The position numbers and the translations under genes are program-made. From assembly GCA_017883235.1 (NCBI GenBank), contig JADGNY010000066.1:1-37522 (forward strand): a stretch of 37,522 nucleotides of DNA. The letters run 5' to 3'. Origin of the DNA: Thermoanaerobaculia bacterium. Lineage in GTDB: Bacteria > Acidobacteriota > Thermoanaerobaculia > Gp7-AA8. Shown in pieces: positions 3,476 through 27,464 of the stretch. The stretch's first letter is position 1. Every line of letters begins with the position of its first letter. The notes beneath the pieces were generated by a model. It saw only the letters and a program-made list of their open reading frames with translations, did not search any database and was not told the origin of the DNA.

Positions 3476-5497
3476 TCAACGCATCTCCGCCAACCCCTTC
3501 CGAATCCTCCCCGCCCGCCCCTTCTCCGCCATCCGCGAAAAACGCTCGGCTTCATACAGAGCGATCAGCGGCGCCAGCTCGAGCGCCGCCGCAGGATGCA
3601 TGCGGTGCAGCTGCGACAGCGCTTCCTCCATCGTCATGGCCGGGCCGACTTCGATGCCGAGTCGGGCGAGGTGGAGGGCGAGGAGATCGAAGAGAGAGCG
3701 GCGGCGGCGCGCGAGGAGGACGACCCCAGCACCGGAGATCAGGAGAGCGGCCATCAACAAGCCGAAAGTGCGCGCGCCGGGGCTGCGCAATGCCAGGGTG
3801 GAGGCGGCCACGGCCAGGCGGAGCCGGTCGAACAGGTCGATGGCCAGAGCGAGCTGATCGCCGAGACCGTAGGTCAGGATGTGGCGGTCCCAGAAGTAGT
3901 TCACCCAGTCGGCCAGCGCCGAGGCGTAGGCGTGGAGAAGGCCGTCGTGCGCGGTGCCGGGGCGGAGAGAGGCCGGAGTCGGGTCGAAGGTCTGCCACGC
4001 CCTCCCGTCCCACACCTCCACCCACGCATGCGCGTCTTCGTTGCGGACGATGAAGTAGCCGGTGATCGGATTGAGCGTGCCCCCGTAGAAGCCGCCGACG
4101 ATGCGCGCGGGAGTGTTGAGCGCCGTCATCAGCGCCACCATCCCCGCGGCGAAGTATTCGCAATGTCCGCGGTGCTCCTGGAGCAGGAACTGATCGACGG
4201 TCATGGTGTGTCCGATCGTTGCCGGGTCGGGCACGTAGCGGAAGCGGGTGGCGAGGTAGCGCTCGATCGCCGCGGCCTGCTTCATCGGATCGGTTTCATT
4301 GCCGGCGATCTGCCGCGCCATGGCCTGCACCGGCGGGGTGACCGGATAGTTCGAGACGGTTACCTTCTGCCGCCGGCGGGGCGCGGTCTCATGCGCGAGG
4401 GCGACGTCGTAGGTGATGGTGTTGCCGTGCGATTGCCAGACCGTGTAGATGTCGCGCGTCGGCCCTTCGGCGATCTGACCGGTGCCGCTGACTTCATAAG
4501 TCCCGACCGGCAGGAACAGGCGGCTTCCGATCGTGAACCGCTGCTGCACGCTGGCCGTCCTGGTGAGCCCCGCGGGGCGCGCGATGACGGTCCTGCCGTC
4601 GCTGCTGTCGAGCGGGATGAAGTCACGCCGTCCCTGCAGCCAGGTGTTGTTGGTGAAGCGCTCGTAGATGGTCCCCTTCAGGCGCAGCGGCGTGAAGAAC
4701 GGGATGGTCTCCGGCCCCATCCAGACGCGGCTGACCACAGAGGCATCGCTGCTGATCGAGCGCGGCTCGTTGAGATTGATCGAGTCGCTGAGACCGGTGC
4801 TGGCATTGCTGAGCGATCCGGACATGCCCGGGAGGAGCGGATTCCGGACGCGCGGCAGCAGCGGGAAAAGAAACGCGCCGATGAGCAGGGCGCCGAAGAC
4901 GTAGAACGATGCCGCGCGGCCGGACGGTGGTTCGTGCGCGGAGCGTTCATCGGTCATCCTGACCGTCTCCTCGTGGCTGAGGTGCATGAGCTGCCGCAGC
5001 AGAAAGAATCCGAAAAGAATCACGAACGGGAGGATGGCGATGTGCGTGGAAGTGGCCACGCTGGCGGTGAAGATGAGCGACGCGGTGAGCAAACGCTGCG
5101 CGGCGTTGCGCGTCCGCACCGATTCGATCGGCTGATAGGCGGCGATAAAGAGGATGAGATGGGTTGATGCGGCGATGGCGCTGCGCGAGATCATCGCCGC
5201 GTCGACGATGTAGAACGGAACGTAGGCGATGGCCAGAACGCGCATGACCATCGGCGGCACCACTTCCGGCCCCTTCCCGAGCGCGACACGGACGGCGATC
5301 GCCAGCAGCATGGCGTGAAAGGCCAGCACCGGCATCACGGAGATCGCCTGCGTCACGTAGAGCGGGACGGCGGCGAACATGGTGAGGAAGAGGAGCTCGA
5401 GGTCGGTGAAGCGGGTGTCGGGGGTCGGGAGTCGGGAGTCGGATTGGGCGAGACGGTTGTCGGTTATCGGTTGTCGGTTTTCGGTGAGTGCGGTCAT
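3476..5497 (-). CDS. Membrane transglutaminase-like protein (TgpA type, DUF3488 + transglutaminase core)
   Basis: A 673-residue integral membrane protein. After an odd N-terminal stretch (residues 1-28, repeat-derived, PTPDTRF), several hydrophobic segments span about residues 30-215. A periplasmic transglutaminase-like domain follows, with the Cys-His-Asp triad in GHCEYFA (C446), DAHAWVEVW (H490) and FDPTP (D505). A further membrane segment (about 575-597) and a cytoplasmic tail come last. TgpA-like proteins are thought to act on peptide or protein substrates at the cell envelope; the exact reaction is not known. Its ATG overlaps the stop codon of the upstream DUF58 gene (ATGA), the usual pairing for this family. 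The N-terminus lies in a repeat element (see 5413-5558), so the first 28 residues are not family sequence; the true start could be further in. Confidence 0.93.
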   Translation of the reverse strand: MTALTENRQPITDNRLAQSDSRLPTPDTRFTDLELLFLTMFAAVPLYVTQAISVMPVLAFHAMLLAIAVRVALGKGPEVVPPMVMRVLAIAYVPFYIVDAAMISRSAIAASTHLILFIAAYQPIESVRTRNAAQRLLTASLIFTASVATSTHIAILPFVILFGFFLLRQLMHLSHEETVRMTDERSAHEPPSGRAASFYVFGALLIGAFLFPLLPRVRNPLLPGMSGSLSNASTGLSDSINLNEPRSISSDASVVSRVWMGPETIPFFTPLRLKGTIYERFTNNTWLQGRRDFIPLDSSDGRTVIARPAGLTRTASVQQRFTIGSRLFLPVGTYEVSGTGQIAEGPTRDIYTVWQSHGNTITYDVALAHETAPRRRQKVTVSNYPVTPPVQAMARQIAGNETDPMKQAAAIERYLATRFRYVPDPATIGHTMTVDQFLLQEHRGHCEYFAAGMVALMTALNTPARIVGGFYGGTLNPITGYFIVRNEDAHAWVEVWDGRAWQTFDPTPASLRPGTAHDGLLHAYASALADWVNYFWDRHILTYGLGDQLALAIDLFDRLRLAVAASTLALRSPGARTFGLLMAALLISGAGVVLLARRRRSLFDLLALHLARLGIEVGPAMTMEEALSQLHRMHPAAALELAPLIALYEAERFSRMAEKGRAGRIRKGLAEMR

Positions 5498-5558
5498 GCT
5501 CCGGCCTCCGACACCCGATCTCCGACCCCCGACACCCGACTCCCGACCCCCGTCACGG
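5413..5558. repeat. Modular GAGTCGGG/GGTTGTCGG repeat element across a gene junction
   Basis: The left arm is a run of GTCGGGAGTCGGG units (about 5415-5444), the middle is four GGTTGTCGG-like units (about 5453-5485), and the right arm is the inverted form with CCCGACTCCCGACCCC units (about 5508-5552). It spans the stop of the DUF58 gene and the start of the transglutaminase gene. It therefore supplies the last about 17 residues of one protein (GVGSRVSGVGDRVSEAGA) and the first about 28 of the other. The same three-part structure in the same orientation occurs at 25728-25856 inside the M3 peptidase gene. Confidence 0.85.
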
Positions 5559-6554: not shown

Positions 6555-6686
6555 GGTCTCGCGGTCTCGGGGTTGCGCGGTCTCGCGGTGCTTTCTTTCA
6601 CGGCCAGCTTCCTGGCTCTCAAATCCATGCCCCGGCAAACGTGTGACCGCGAGACCGCGTAACCGCGAGACCGCGCAACCCCGAGA
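6555..6686. repeat. Inverted GACCGCGAGACCGCG repeats between divergent genes
   Basis: The left arm (6555-6589) is made of GGTCTCGCGGTCTCGGGG units and the right arm (6646-6686) is its near-exact inverted copy (ACCGCGAGACCGCG, twice). About 56 bp of non-repeat sequence lies between. The arms fill the promoter region between the DUF58 gene (start 6516) and the sorbosone-dehydrogenase-like gene (start 6699). Related runs occur inside the RND permease gene (10787-10822) and before the sigma factor gene (about 36805-36825). Confidence 0.8.
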
Positions 6687-7956: not shown

Positions 7957-8087
7957 CCGGAGCGCTGGCGTCCTCGCCGGCTGGCGCGGGGGCGTCTCGC
8001 CCCCGCTCACCAAGATTCCACACATTTGCGAGTAACCCTCGGCGGCGAGACGCCGCCGAGCCAGCCGGCGAGACGCCAGCGCTCCGG
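7957..8087. repeat. Structured repeat, copy 1 (outer stem with two inner hairpins)
   Basis: The ends are GGAGCGCTGGCGTC... and its inverted form ...GACGCCAGCGCTCC. Inside are two small perfect hairpins, GGGGGCGTCTCGCCCCC and GGCGGCGAGACGCCGCC, separated by an unpaired stretch AAGATTCCACACATT. The whole would fold as a junction with three stems. The copies at 9060-9163 and 17697-17824 have the same design and orientation. It has no coding potential. This is the look of a REP/BIME-like or MITE-like element. Confidence 0.88.
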
Positions 8088-9059: not shown

Positions 9060-9163
9060 GGAGCGCTGGCGTCTCGCCCCCCGCCCGCCAAGATTCCACA
9101 CATTCGCCGCTAACCCTCAGCGGCGAGACGCCGCCGAGCCAGCCGGCGAGACGCCAGCGCTCC
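9060..9163. repeat. Structured repeat, copy 2
   Basis: Same design and orientation as the copy at 7957-8087, but the first inner hairpin is shortened and the left outer arm lacks its GGCTGGC part. It keeps the AAGATTCCACACATT block, the GGCGGCGAGACGCCGCC hairpin and the GCCAGCGCTCC end. It lies between the start of the DUF433 gene and the 3' end of the RND permease gene. Confidence 0.88.
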
Positions 9164-23011: not shown

Positions 23012-23022
23012 TTGGGTTTCTT

Positions 23023-23146
23023 GGTAGCTGGGTTGCTTGGTTGCTGAGTTGCCGGCTTCTCAGTTGCCAGTGACTTTATCATTCAGCGCCGCTTGTTCCG
23101 GCAACCAAGCGACTCAGCGACTCAGCAACCCAGCAACCTAGCAACC
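23023..23146. repeat. Inverted GCAACTCAGCAACC-type repeats between apaG and the DUF4403 gene
   Basis: On one side (23023-23068) are GGGTTGCTTGGTTGCTGAG units; on the other (23101-23146) the inverted form GCAACCAAGCGACTCAGCG and CAGCAACCCAGCAACCTAGC. About 32 bp lie between. The two genes are divergent, so both 5' leaders are made of this repeat. The DUF4403 ATG follows the last unit with no gap, so the repeat takes the place of a normal ribosome site. Confidence 0.8.
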
Positions 23147-24523
23147 ATGTTCATCACCCTCCTCACCATCGCCGCGGCCATCCAGAGCCCGCCACCACCG
23201 CCTCCCCCACCCGAGCTTTCCACGATCGTCATCCCGATCCGCGCGTCGCTCGCACCTCTGCTGCCGCAACTGGAATCGCAGGTGCCGAAGAGTCTGGCGA
23301 AGACGGACGCCTTCGAGCTCGATCCGGCGAAACAGTTCGGGATGAAGTACCGCGTCGTTCGCGATCCGATCACGCTCAACGTCCTCGGCAGCGGCATTCA
23401 CGCCATGACCACCGTCCACTACGCGCTCGAGGGCTGCCGGCGGACGCAGAAGCCGTTCAGCACGGAGATCGTCATGTGGCCCTGCATCTCGTGCGGCTTC
23501 GGCGAGCCGATGCGCGATGCCTGGATCTCGCTCTCGTCGCATCTGGAATGGGACGCCAACTGGCGCCTTCGCTCCGCGACGCGCGCAATGCCGGTCGACT
23601 TCTCCTCCAACCGTTGCCAGGTAACGTTCGCCAACATCGACATCACCGACTGGAAGATCGGTCCTATCGTGAACGAGCAATTGCGCCAGGCGGTGAAGAC
23701 GATCGACGCCAACATCCCTCGATTGACGAACATCCGCCCGGCAGCCAACCAGGTTTGGTCCGCGCTGCAGACCCCGATCGCGATCGGCCCACGCACGTGG
23801 CTGGTGATGGACCCGGTGGATGTCGCCCTCGGCCCGATCTCCGGTTCCGGACTCACGCTCACGAGCGCGTTGACGCTCCGAGCCCGTACGCGCGTCGTCG
23901 TCGGCGATCGCCCGCCGGTGATGCCGAAGCCGCTGCCGGCGCTGCGGGTGGCGCAGGCGGCGAACGACGGCATCCGCATCCCGTTCGACGTCGAGCTGCC
24001 ATACGCCGAGGCCAATCGACTGATGACGGAGAACTTCGCGAAGCAGACCTACGAAGGCGTCGCCGTCGGTTCCATCCGCCTCGGGCCGGGGGCGGACGGC
24101 CGCGTTTCCATCGAGTTGAACGTCAACTACCGCGCCTCGTTCCTCAAGCGCTACAGCGGCTTGGTCTACCTCGAGGGGACTCCGCTCTTCGACGCCGCCA
24201 CGCGCACGGTCTCGCTGGAAAACCTGAACTACTCGCTCGATCCCCGGCGGAAAAATCCGTTCCTCCGGATCGCCGACCGCATCGCACACGAAAAGCTGCG
24301 CGAGACATTGGCGAAATCCGCGCACTGGTCCGTGTCACCGCAGATCGAATCCATTCGCGGGGAGATCGCGCGCGCCGTGACGCGGCCGCTGGCGCCTGGC
24401 GTGATGATGCGCGGCCGCGTCGACGCCATCGAGCCGGGCTCACTGATGCTCGACGCGAACGGCATCATCATCCACGCGCTGGCGACAGGAAGCGCCGAGG
24501 TGGAAGTCAGCGCGATCCGGTGA
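23147..24523 (+). CDS. DUF4403 family secreted protein
   Basis: 458 residues from the ATG at 23147 (MFITLLTIAAAIQSPPPPPP); an upstream in-frame start at 23093 lies within repeat sequence and is not preferred. A short hydrophobic N-terminus and an eight-Pro run precede STIVIPIRASLAPLLPQLES. DUF4403 features follow: FGMKYRVVRDPITLNVLGSG, DWKIGPIVNEQLRQAVKTID, an internally repeated tubular-lipid-binding-like pattern, and a C-terminus with the VDAIEPGSLMLDANGIIIHA motif. The fold is expected to resemble two BPI/TULIP-like domains, so binding of a lipid or other hydrophobic ligand is likely but unproven. No partner gene is clear. Confidence 0.85.
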   Translation: MFITLLTIAAAIQSPPPPPPPPELSTIVIPIRASLAPLLPQLESQVPKSLAKTDAFELDPAKQFGMKYRVVRDPITLNVLGSGIHAMTTVHYALEGCRRTQKPFSTEIVMWPCISCGFGEPMRDAWISLSSHLEWDANWRLRSATRAMPVDFSSNRCQVTFANIDITDWKIGPIVNEQLRQAVKTIDANIPRLTNIRPAANQVWSALQTPIAIGPRTWLVMDPVDVALGPISGSGLTLTSALTLRARTRVVVGDRPPVMPKPLPALRVAQAANDGIRIPFDVELPYAEANRLMTENFAKQTYEGVAVGSIRLGPGADGRVSIELNVNYRASFLKRYSGLVYLEGTPLFDAATRTVSLENLNYSLDPRRKNPFLRIADRIAHEKLRETLAKSAHWSVSPQIESIRGEIARAVTRPLAPGVMMRGRVDAIEPGSLMLDANGIIIHALATGSAEVEVSAIR

Positions 24524-24570
24524 ACGCGATCCTTTTGCTACAGGTAGTAGATGAGCCAATAGAGAGACCG

Positions 24571-24680
24571 ATGTGGCACAGACACTCTTGTCTGTGCCGG
24601 ATCTCGGCACGACTCGAGATCGCAAGCCCTCATGGGTGCGGCTCCGGCCGGGGGCACAGACAAGAGTGTCTGTGCCACAT
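24571..24680. repeat. Perfect 28-bp inverted repeat element (CAGACACTCTTGTCTG type)
   Basis: The arm at 24571-24598 (ATGTGGCACAGACACTCTTG...) is exactly the reverse complement of 24653-24680. Each arm is also palindromic on its own (GGCACAGACA/TGTCTGTGCC around CTCT). So the element can form one long stem or two separate hairpins. The 54 bp between contain a further small hairpin (GATCTCG/CGAGATC). It carries no gene. It is about 110 bp long and lies after the DUF4403 gene. Confidence 0.85.
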
Positions 24681-24711
24681 TGGTCACTGGCTTGCGACCG
24701 CCGGCATCGAG

Positions 24712-25412: not shown

Positions 25413-27464
25413 CTATTCGCCGCGGATCTCGGCGAAGAAGGCATCGCTCGAAACGGGCCGCCCGAGGAACCGTTCCACGAGATCGCGGGCGGGCTCTTCA
25501 CTGCCGCGCGAGAGGATCATCTCGCGAAAACGGCGGCCGATGGCCTCGTTCATGACGTTGGAACCAAACGCCGAGATCAGATCGAGCGCGATGACCTTCG
25601 CCCACATGTATCCGTAGTACCCGGCCGCGTACCCGCTGGCGATGTGCTCGAAGGTACCGGGAAACTCGGAATCCTCGACGTTGCCCATGGGGGTGGAGCG
25701 CTCCATGTCTGTCCAGAGGTGGAGGGAGAGGGAGTCGGGAACCGGGAGTCGGGGGTCGGGGGTCGGAGCGTTGAAACCGGTTGTCGGTTGTCCGTTGTCG
25801 GTTGTCGGTTCGCCTGACTTAGCTCCCACTCCCGACCCCCGGCTCCCGACCCCCTCGCCCGAAAGGGCCATATCGAAGCTGGCGTAAAGAAGCTGTCTCC
25901 CGTAGTCGATTCCTGAGCCGAACTTCTTGGCCGCACGGATTCGCTGCACGAGCGACTCGTCGATGAGCGGACAGGTTGCGCAGTGGTTGCGCATCAGCTT
26001 CAGGCTCTCCATCCGGCTGGCCCACTCCTCGTACATCTGCGACGGCGCCTCGACGAAGTCGCGCTCGACGCTGGTGCCGGAGTGCTGGTTGTATTCGGTG
26101 CGGGAGAGCACGCCGTGCATGACATGCCCGAACTCGTGCAGCAGCGTTTCCAACTCGCTGTGCGTGAGTCCCCGCCGGTTGAAGTTCGCGACCAGGACGC
26201 TGATGGGCTGGCGGCCTTCGTTGCGCGAGACGCCGCGCACCGGCCACGCCGCGGCGTGCTTGTATTTGTCGGCGCGTGGATAGAGATCGAGGTAGATGCC
26301 GCCGATCCGCTCGCCCGAGAGGGCATCCTCGACGTCGTAATACATCACGTCGTCGTGCCACACCGGAACGATGGCCTTGGTGAAGCGAATGCCGTAGAGC
26401 CGCTCGGTGATGTCGAGCATCCAGTGCACGGTCGACAGCGTGGGGAAGTACTCGCGCAGCGTTTCCTGATCGACGGCGTAGCGCTTCTCCCGCAGCCGCT
26501 CGCGGTAATAGACGACGTCCCAGCGCTCGATCGATGCCTGATCGATGGGCAGACCCGTCAGCTCCGCCTTCATCTCCGCGAGCTGCCGCAGGTCGCCGAG
26601 CTCGGCCTCGGTGACGCGGCTCTTCACTTCGTTCAAAAAGCGCATCACCGTCTCGGGGTTCTCGACCATCCGCCGCTTCGTGACGTAGTGCGCGTAGCTG
26701 GGGACGCCGTAGAGATCGCCGATCTCTTTCCGTAGCGCCACGATCTCGTCGAGGACCGCGAGATTGCGCGCCGTGCCGCGATTCATGTTGGCGACGTAAT
26801 AACGCTTCCGCGCCTGTTCGCTGGCCGCATTGGCCATGAACGGCACGAAGTCGGGATAGTCGAAACCGACGACGATGTTCCCCTGCTCGTCGTGCGGCAC
26901 GCGATCGAGATACGACTGCGGCAGACCTTGGCACTCCTCGTTGCTGAAGGTAAGGACGGTCTTGTTCTCGCGGATGTTCTTGCTGAACTCCTGCGCCAGC
27001 TCGATGAGGCGCTCGGAGATGGCCTTGAAGCGATCACGCTTCTCCGCCGGAAGGGCCACGCCGCTGTCCTCGAACGCTTCGAGCAGATCCTTCTTCAACT
27101 GCTTCTGTGCGCCGGTGTGCGTGACGACGCGCCGCACGCGCTCGTAGAGCTGCTCGTTCTGAAAGAGCTCGGTTATGAAGACCGACTCTTCGATCAGGGC
27201 CCGGTCGCCGGCGTCGCGCACCTCGGCGTCAGGATGGACGCTGTTGAGCAGCGAGATCGGGCCATGCACATCCTCGATCATCATGGACATGCGGTCCCAG
27301 GCATCGAGCACCGACTCGGGCGTGACCTTCTCCAGCGGCAGCCGCTCGATCTCGGCCACCCTGCGCCGCGCCTCGGCAAGGGCACGCTCCGATGCCGCCA
27401 CCAGCGCGCCGGCGTCGTAGATCGGAATGGTCGGTCGGCTGCTGAGGGCGATTGCTTCGGTCAT
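25413..27464 (-). CDS. M3-family zinc oligopeptidase (thimet/oligopeptidase A type)
   Basis: A 683-residue cytosolic metallopeptidase that cleaves short peptides. The zinc site is HEFGH (H443, E444, H447) within LLHEFGHVMHG, with the third ligand E472 in DFVEAPSQMYEEW. Family landmarks are VYYRERLREKRYAVD, GGIYLDLYPRADKYKHAA, YNQHSGTSVERDF, LLYASFDMAL and GYAAGYYGYMWAKV. There is no signal peptide. Between residues about 537 and 579, in a loop before the conserved GYAAGYYGY helix, sits a 43-residue low-complexity stretch (GVGSRGSGVGAKSGEPTTDN, then TPDPRLPVPDS) encoded by a repeat element at 25728-25856. It keeps the frame. Without it the protein would have normal family length and continuity. 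Confidence 0.95.
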   Translation of the reverse strand: MTEAIALSSRPTIPIYDAGALVAASERALAEARRRVAEIERLPLEKVTPESVLDAWDRMSMMIEDVHGPISLLNSVHPDAEVRDAGDRALIEESVFITELFQNEQLYERVRRVVTHTGAQKQLKKDLLEAFEDSGVALPAEKRDRFKAISERLIELAQEFSKNIRENKTVLTFSNEECQGLPQSYLDRVPHDEQGNIVVGFDYPDFVPFMANAASEQARKRYYVANMNRGTARNLAVLDEIVALRKEIGDLYGVPSYAHYVTKRRMVENPETVMRFLNEVKSRVTEAELGDLRQLAEMKAELTGLPIDQASIERWDVVYYRERLREKRYAVDQETLREYFPTLSTVHWMLDITERLYGIRFTKAIVPVWHDDVMYYDVEDALSGERIGGIYLDLYPRADKYKHAAAWPVRGVSRNEGRQPISVLVANFNRRGLTHSELETLLHEFGHVMHGVLSRTEYNQHSGTSVERDFVEAPSQMYEEWASRMESLKLMRNHCATCPLIDESLVQRIRAAKKFGSGIDYGRQLLYASFDMALSGEGVGSRGSGVGAKSGEPTTDNGQPTTGFNAPTPDPRLPVPDSLSLHLWTDMERSTPMGNVEDSEFPGTFEHIASGYAAGYYGYMWAKVIALDLISAFGSNVMNEAIGRRFREMILSRGSEEPARDLVERFLGRPVSSDAFFAEIRGE
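25728..25856. repeat. Modular repeat element in frame inside the M3 peptidase gene
   Basis: It has the same build as the element at 5413-5558: left arm of GGGAGTCGGGGGTCGGGG units, middle of GGTTGTCGGTTGTCCG units, and right arm of inverted CCCACTCCCGACCCC units, in the same strand orientation. It adds about 129 bp (43 codons) without a stop, so the host frame remains open. The encoded residues are Gly, Ser, Pro, Thr and Asp-rich and likely disordered. Confidence 0.88.

Follow-up and report, generated by a model that had tools for sequence, protein, structure and literature searches.

Tandem heptanucleotide repeats, several kinds of which may coexist in one genome, are familiar from the STRR sequences of cyanobacteria. 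Among related systems, 68% of the GGGGA(C/T)T repeats of Nostoc are intergenic, and the G-rich GGGAATC heptamers of Xanthomonas are dispersed, G-quadruplex (G4)-capable and preferentially arranged in four units, with 70 (Xcc) and 75 (Xac) convergent inverted pairs and 7-11% intragenic copies (Rehm et al. 2015, PMC4692102). Intragenic REPs, over half of which are dimers or groups, comprise 20-30 residues and often lie in DNA-repair genes and also in some tRNA synthetases, and the recB genes of X. campestris and X. oryzae carry different REPs at about one site (Di Nocera et al. 2013, PMC3733652). The same paper describes the Rickettsia palindromic element (RPE) as an in-frame palindromic insertion in open reading frames whose products are probably functional. 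REPINs consist of two inverted repeat units and occur in many copies (Bertels and Rainey 2011, PMC3116915), and the coding palindromes of nematomorph mitochondria provide another coding inverted repeat (PMC6649704). In this study, we analyzed a stretch of 37,522 nt (hereafter, the window) on contig JADGNY010000066.1 of a Thermoanaerobaculia bacterium (assembly GCA_017883235.1, forward strand, positions 1 to 37,522), in which an M3 oligopeptidase gene carries a hairpin built of heptamers. A dispersed hairpin repeat has very probably inserted into a loop of this enzyme and is translated there as a disordered surface loop. The case joins the Xanthomonas-type heptamer pairs and the intragenic REPs, in that its heptamer pairs form a family of which an unusually large part lies in genes.

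The locus comprises the following features.
25413-27464, minus strand: gene for the 683-aa M3 oligopeptidase that hosts the insert, its HEFGH motif being at residues 443-447; nearest structures by Foldseek, thimet oligopeptidase/neurolysin
25734-25853, minus strand: the insert at the protein level, residues 538-577; 38 codons gained net relative to the empty site; disorder predicted (predicted local distance difference test, pLDDT, below 50 at residues 542-576)
25730-25768, plus strand: G-rich arm, composed of GGGAGTC, GGGAACC (degenerate), GGGAGTC, GGGGGTC and GGGGGTC, then GGAG
25778-25810, plus strand: GGTTGTC array in the loop; minus-strand translation PTTDNGQPTT
25823-25860, plus strand: C-rich arm, inverted partner of the G-rich arm
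25718-25866, minus strand: predicted mRNA hairpin of this copy, -88 kcal/mol versus -61.2 +/- 4.8 for 200 shuffles

The protein matches Pfam PF01432 with an E value of 6.3e-98, and the frame stays open across the whole insert, in agreement with a preliminary description of this DNA that had reported a modular inverted repeat in frame within an M3 peptidase gene. That description had given the repeat 43 codons at 25728-25856; its location was upheld, and its extent was revised to the smaller interval listed above, the net gain of 38 codons being the same against the same-genus genome G001 and against 12 relatives from other genera. The arms (25724-25759 and 25825-25860) are inverted, 36 nt long and 83% complementary, with the GGTTGTC array between them, and the stability of the predicted mRNA hairpin corresponds to a z of -5.5 relative to the shuffles. 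An AlphaFold2 model based on a 30-sequence alignment reached a mean pLDDT of 88.9 and a predicted template modelling score (pTM) of 0.87. Only residues 1-6 and 542-576 form stretches of at least three residues with pLDDT below 50, and the insert is bounded by a helix ending at residue 535 and a helix starting at residue 579. The insert is a heptamer-built inverted repeat modelled as a disordered loop inside a confident fold, and its host is presumably still a working enzyme.

The source genome (G000; 6.92 Mb) is apparently a metagenome-assembled genome (MAG), as are those of its relatives, including the same-genus members G001 and G002 and G017, which represents another genus of the same family. 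Here, GGGAGTCGGG occurs 313 times in the source genome, compared with nine occurrences of its reversed control, too often for a chance sequence. Among 148 genomes of the class searched, GGGRGTCGGGRGTCGG had 427, 332 and 142 matches in three genus members, 76 in G017 and one to five in nine other genomes, and none in the remaining 135. The hairpin family is dispersed, and its abundance is confined to a single Thermoanaerobaculia genus and one species beyond it. An assembly artefact is unlikely for the M3 insert, because the same family is present at orthologous positions in genes of two further MAGs from the genus. A short and partial coverage of the literature yielded no report of such repeats in Thermoanaerobaculia or other Acidobacteriota. 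The detailed survey was carried out on 1,087,159 bp (1.09 Mb) of stretches of the source genome chosen for holding arrays, which contain 187 tandem arrays of period 7, compared with none in one order-3 Markov sequence of equal length; the periods that follow are 14 (109 arrays), 21 (112 arrays) and 8 (37 arrays, versus one in the Markov sequence). Several heptamer dialects coexist (GGGNGTC, GGTTGTC, GGTTTCT, GGATGAA, GGCAGAA, GAATGTT and GAAAGCA), which is a likeness to the cyanobacterial STRR by description only.

The anatomy of the GGGNGTC copies was examined across four genomes, with hairpins less than 200 bp from the end of a stretch (2/122) excluded from the counts. A standard copy reads C(GGGNGTC)4-GGAG-loop-CTCC-(GACNCCC)4-G, with GTAG/CTAC as an inner-border variant that is less frequent than GGAG. 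Exactly four units were found in 79/120 left arms and in 79/120 right arms, and 57/120 hairpins are four-by-four. Neighbouring arrays form 122 convergent pairs, one pair in the opposite order and nine in the same orientation, and 53 arrays are single. The units are mainly GGGGGTC, GGGAGTC and GGGTGTC (681/886), GGGAATC contributing only eight, and many arms contain four GGG tracts at a four-base spacing. Thus, the seven-base G-rich unit, the preference for four units and the convergent pairing are shared with the Xanthomonas heptamers, whereas the GGGAATC unit itself is present in only 8/120 hairpins (although 301/886 units fit GGGANT) and the inner borders are mostly GGAG/CTCC. Inverted pairs in protein genes, including those for DNA repair, resemble intragenic REP dimers. 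REPs are 20-40 bp GTAG/CGTC palindromes; the arms here are heptamer arrays, with GGAG, less often GTAG, at the inner border. With RPE the family shares in-frame insertion into conserved protein genes and absence from orthologs, again by description and not by sequence.

The loops are mostly 15-35 nt long and largely unrelated in sequence. The distance from array to array is not quantised to threes (remainders 0, 1 and 2 modulo 3: 17, 11 and 19 in genes; 16, 21 and 23 outside), and therefore the frame must come from the ragged ends and the loop. Two simple models of the anatomy were rejected. That the arms are copies of each other is unsupported, as the N bases of the two arms are uncorrelated, and the loop is not always host sequence, an idea that fits a glycosyltransferase (L049) and perhaps L174 and fails generally; in G002, the MutS and pyruvate dehydrogenase loops greatly exceed the empty site in length. 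The peptide encoded by a GGGNGTC hairpin is typically SGVGSRESGVG...SPTPDPRLPTPD. Hairpins of another dialect were also observed. At L055 (10447-10593), a GGTTTCT heptamer hairpin is nested in the loop of a GGGNGTC pair, and at L176 (11284-11385), a GGTTTCT hairpin in an RND transporter encodes the hydrophobic peptide SGFWFLVSGL beside a hydrophobic region of the protein.

Genes were called with a purpose-written codon-usage caller, which gave 813 genes and 77% coding sequence (815 genes in a rerun), and in-gene fractions were restricted to G000, the stretches of G001 and G002 having been partly chosen around known in-gene sites. Other in-gene copies, whose existence the preliminary description had left to a genome search, were found: 21/58 complete GGGNGTC hairpins lie wholly in called genes, nine overlap a gene end and 28 are intergenic. 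The in-gene share (21 inside and nine overlapping) is still below the coding share of the stretches, and it differs from the strong under-representation in coding sequence reported for Xanthomonas. Heptamer inverted-repeat pairs, known as mostly intergenic, are thereby extended to a family in which over a third of the sampled complete hairpins are in genes, among them genes for core metabolism and DNA repair. By Pfam and NCBIfam assignment, the hosts of GGGNGTC hairpins include threonine synthase, MutS, pyruvate dehydrogenase (PDH) E1 with alpha and beta parts, an aconitase-family enzyme, aldehyde ferredoxin oxidoreductase, an IMS-type polymerase (ImuB-like), NadD, UvrD, a PD-(D/E)XK nuclease, a sulfatase and a YfhO protein. 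Arms that are single or mixed, or heptamers of another kind, occur in PheT, PurH, 6-pyruvoyl tetrahydropterin synthase, formate dehydrogenase and an RND transporter. Three DNA repair or translesion hosts (MutS, IMS-type polymerase and UvrD; L053, L157 and L159, 17406-19736) echo the DNA-repair hosts of intragenic REPs.

Relatives provided empty versions of these sites. The M3 site has exactly 14 residues in 13/15 relatives, including the sister genome G001; it has 85 residues in G002 and is unreadable in G008. The insertion is thus absent from most relatives, as the preliminary description had expected, and the loop of non-repeat codons in all relatives that would have spoken against it was not seen. 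Similar results were obtained for MutS (13-17 residues in 12/14 relatives; G001 and G002 filled), aconitase (13-21 residues in 11/13; G001 and G002 filled) and PDH (15-20 residues in 8/11; G001, G002 and G010 filled), and short sites were also present in the few other-genus relatives measured for ThrC, aldehyde ferredoxin oxidoreductase and PheT. Queries made of joined flanks mostly gave single matches across the junction in the same genes of other genera; some matches, for example those for PDH and the ImuB-like polymerase in G010, are split. Within the genus, most tested sites are common to the members and differ in unit, loop and length; clean empty sites were found for M3, L151 and the second L165 site in G001 and for L057 in G002. 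Net lengths at the orthologous G001 and G002 sites are whole codons, and a net gain of 23 residues recurs in MutS, threonine synthase, PDH and others. By these alignments, the in-gene arrays are insertions, most measurable other-genus relatives having empty sites. In G002, the threonine synthase and ImuB-like sites (L210 and L216) hold the palindrome GTAGGTCGGACTCTCCAGTCCGAC, and what looks like the remains of a heptamer arm persists at one edge; seemingly, one repeat family has replaced another.

The same seven codons are read from a heptamer array in all three frames, because seven is coprime with three. The preliminary description had supposed that the repeat keeps one particular frame free of stops and had raised a bias of the insertion frame. 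A special stop-free frame was rejected, since the frame makes no difference to a heptamer array and, among random genomic 7-mers, 74% lack stops on both strands, and no bias was apparent either, array phases in genes being 16, 19 and 12 for frames 0, 1 and 2. Intergenic hairpins show no excess of open frames over their dinucleotide shuffles: among six frames, the mean number open is 4.38 for intergenic hairpins (shuffles, 4.32), 4.83 for in-gene hairpins (shuffles, 4.51) and 3.68 for random genomic DNA.

Judged from the sequences, the in-gene arrays are most likely translated, and the best evidence comes from the direction of GGTTGTC arrays, which are stop-free both ways and encode GCRLSVV or DNRQPTT, depending on the strand. 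In genes, at more than 30 bp from the stop, the DNRQPTT reading was found 11:0, compared with 13:14 between tandem genes (Fisher p 0.0026); three arrays overlapping a gene end or less than 30 bp from a stop were excluded (two GGTTGTC-sense and one GACAACC-sense). Such one-directional reading offers a simple genome-only test for translation and peptide selection of repeats. Moreover, arrays containing a stop on either strand are in genes in 2/33 cases, versus 76/219 stop-free arrays (Fisher p 4.5e-4; by cluster, 2/21 versus 46/126, p 0.021), a comparison that is partly circular, since a stop ends a called gene. Selection for frame, one of two explanations offered by the preliminary description, gains support within that limit. 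The other, a tolerated peptide linker, agrees with the disordered model and the hydrophilic-only reading of GGTTGTC, whereas the idea that the repeat evolved to be tolerated is unsupported, given how many random 7-mers are free of stops. Selection after insertion would suffice, and a frame-preserving design would be unneeded, though this would not be the whole story.

These results suggest the following course of events. A hairpin copy, its arms typically of four tandem heptamers each, would have inserted where a loop connects two helices of the M3 enzyme. The insert would have survived because the net number of bases added is divisible by three and its heptamers are stop-free, and any frame would yield an equal peptide, Gly/Ser-rich and then Pro/Thr/Asp-rich, to be translated as a disordered surface loop. 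Copies that are out of frame, carry stops or encode an unsuitable peptide would be purged, and the remainder would accumulate in permissive enzyme loops. Spread is the least certain part: REPIN-like copying of inverted modules via a single-stranded intermediate, together with slippage and conversion between copies, is a tentative proposal that falls somewhat short of probable, under which arms would be copied as modules and arrays would be homogenised within species.

A number of observations weigh against the insertion and translation of a dispersed repeat as set out here. The 30 bp cut-off of the GGTTGTC test was chosen post hoc, and adding the two C-terminal arrays changes the ratio to 11:2 (p 0.040); leaving out four arrays that are near N-termini or before a likelier start gives 7:0 (p 0.026). 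Without GGGNGTC, the stop test is not significant (22/106 versus 2/33, p 0.064). GGGNGTC arrays are more often in genes (54/113) than GGTTGTC (11/59) or other stop-free arrays (11/47), and stop-freedom is therefore insufficient as an explanation; a peptide of Gly/Ser and Pro/Thr/Asp would presumably make a better linker. The gene calls came from our own script and the stretches were selected for holding arrays, and in-gene copies are in frame by definition, so that frame-broken ones would be counted as intergenic. At least five of the 21 in-gene hairpins are near a gene end (L039, L043, L048, L156 and the first of L157), where starts and stops are uncertain. Loop pairs sharing a 9-mer number 76 (shuffle mean 36, maximum 47), which stems partly from nested GGTTGTC arrays and one local duplication. 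Finally, 76/228 N bases of paired arms are identical versus 78.0 expected, and therefore neither recent inverted copying nor selection for perfect pairing is seen.

How the arrays arose may also be seen differently. Microsatellite growth in place, in which slippage expands chance heptamers in variable loops and template switching makes the pairs, would account for the dominance of period 7 and for array dialects that vary between species at one site. It would likewise suit the L049 glycosyltransferase (start 6788), in which some 36 conserved host residues lie between the arms and the right arm brings no net gain: this arm occupies the position of host residues in other genera, and the protein is not longer than in G003, G010, G016 and G017, which suggests that arms can arrive separately. 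However, a four-unit module with mostly GGAG/CTCC borders, recurring in the four-by-four form in nearly half of the hairpins, is not obvious from independent slippage, and the arms are not mutual copies; we regard growth in place as unlikely. An origin as REPINs proper, that is, REP dimers mobilised by a genome-encoded RAYT tyrosine transposase, appears improbable. The inverted modules, their fixed convergent order, the GGAG or GTAG beside the spacer and the nine Y1-transposase (PF01797) matches in the genome speak for it, and REPIN units are reportedly separated by a variable spacer, as are the inverted dimers here. On the other hand, the arms are tandem heptamers and not a small palindrome, and none of the nine Y1 loci has a detected GGGNGTC array in its flanks (about 1.5 kb, less at contig ends), a result that also counts against our own account. 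The RAYT link was dropped as unsupported. One of these Y1 loci (L351) has an irregular G-rich GGGGGTCGGAAGGGTCGG stretch.

Two further alternatives concern what becomes of the hairpin in the cell. Splicing of the hairpin from the message, or its bypass by the ribosome, would leave a protein without the repeat; the very stable predicted RNA structure of the M3 copy is compatible with this, and the insertions in threonine synthase and PDH E1 lie near what we take to be cofactor motifs. Removal or bypass would not predict the one-way reading of GGTTGTC in genes or the whole-codon net lengths at orthologous sites in G001 and G002, and it is very improbable. It is also quite improbable that the hairpin, or a G4 of its G-rich arm, regulates expression of the host gene and that its coding is tolerated as a by-product. 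The four GGG tracts at four-base spacing in many arms recall the repeats of Xanthomonas, for which G4 formation in vitro is described (PMC4692102), yet the host genes are functionally mixed and presence varies among same-genus species at several sites.

With insertion of a dispersed repeat as the preferred reading, the comparison of sites leads to a further, plausible but tentative idea, namely that conserved enzymes of this bacterial family hold fixed 'sockets', codon positions that are refilled across species and genera by unrelated 7- or 8-base arrays and that would be a standing source of new loops. The array peptide is equal in every frame because periods 7 and 8 share no factor with three. 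In G010, which has three GGGNGTC matches, the PDH site is filled by an octamer array, GGTCACGA, and both ImuB-like sites by GCAGAGC heptamer arrays, with GACCGCA and GGACTCA too at the first, and the formate dehydrogenase site of G007 holds a CGATGAA hairpin. The M3 and second L165 sites are filled in G000 and G002 and empty in G001, even though G000 and G001 are sisters in the M3 tree (ultrafast bootstrap, UFBoot, 96) and 24/34 flanks are closer to G001 and five to G002. At the M3 site, G001 has residues like those found in other genera. The simplest reading is that a single codon position gained arrays repeatedly, and exchange between species may be an alternative for the filled/empty/filled pattern at M3. 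If true, sockets would amount to natural experiments, open to repetition, that show how new disordered loops become part of proteins and why some loops accept almost anything.

The window contains a second copy of the family.
5412-5552, strand not assigned: copy spanning the ATGA stop/start overlap of two minus-strand operon genes

Its GGTTGTC array encodes the N-terminus of a TgpA/transglutaminase-like gene product, and its arms encode the C-terminus of the first protein, which matches DUF58 weakly and below threshold, and the N-terminus of the next.

Repeats of other kinds were also found in the window. Directly downstream of the gene at 23147-24523, a long inverted repeat of another type (GGCACAGACAC..TCTTGTCTGTGCC with its mirror) occupies 24568-24693. 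Inverted octamer array pairs lie in divergent intergenic gaps at 23013-23146 (TGGGTTGC/GCAACCCA) and 6555-6686 (GGTCTCGC/GACCGCGA); period-8 arrays are mostly outside genes (eight in, 44 out). A 64-bp unit containing GAGGCAGTT/AACTGCCTC palindromes is repeated seven times at 2177-2639, and an identical 11-mer array, CGGCGAGACGC, is present in two copies about 1.1 kb apart, at 8043-8081 and 9121-9159.

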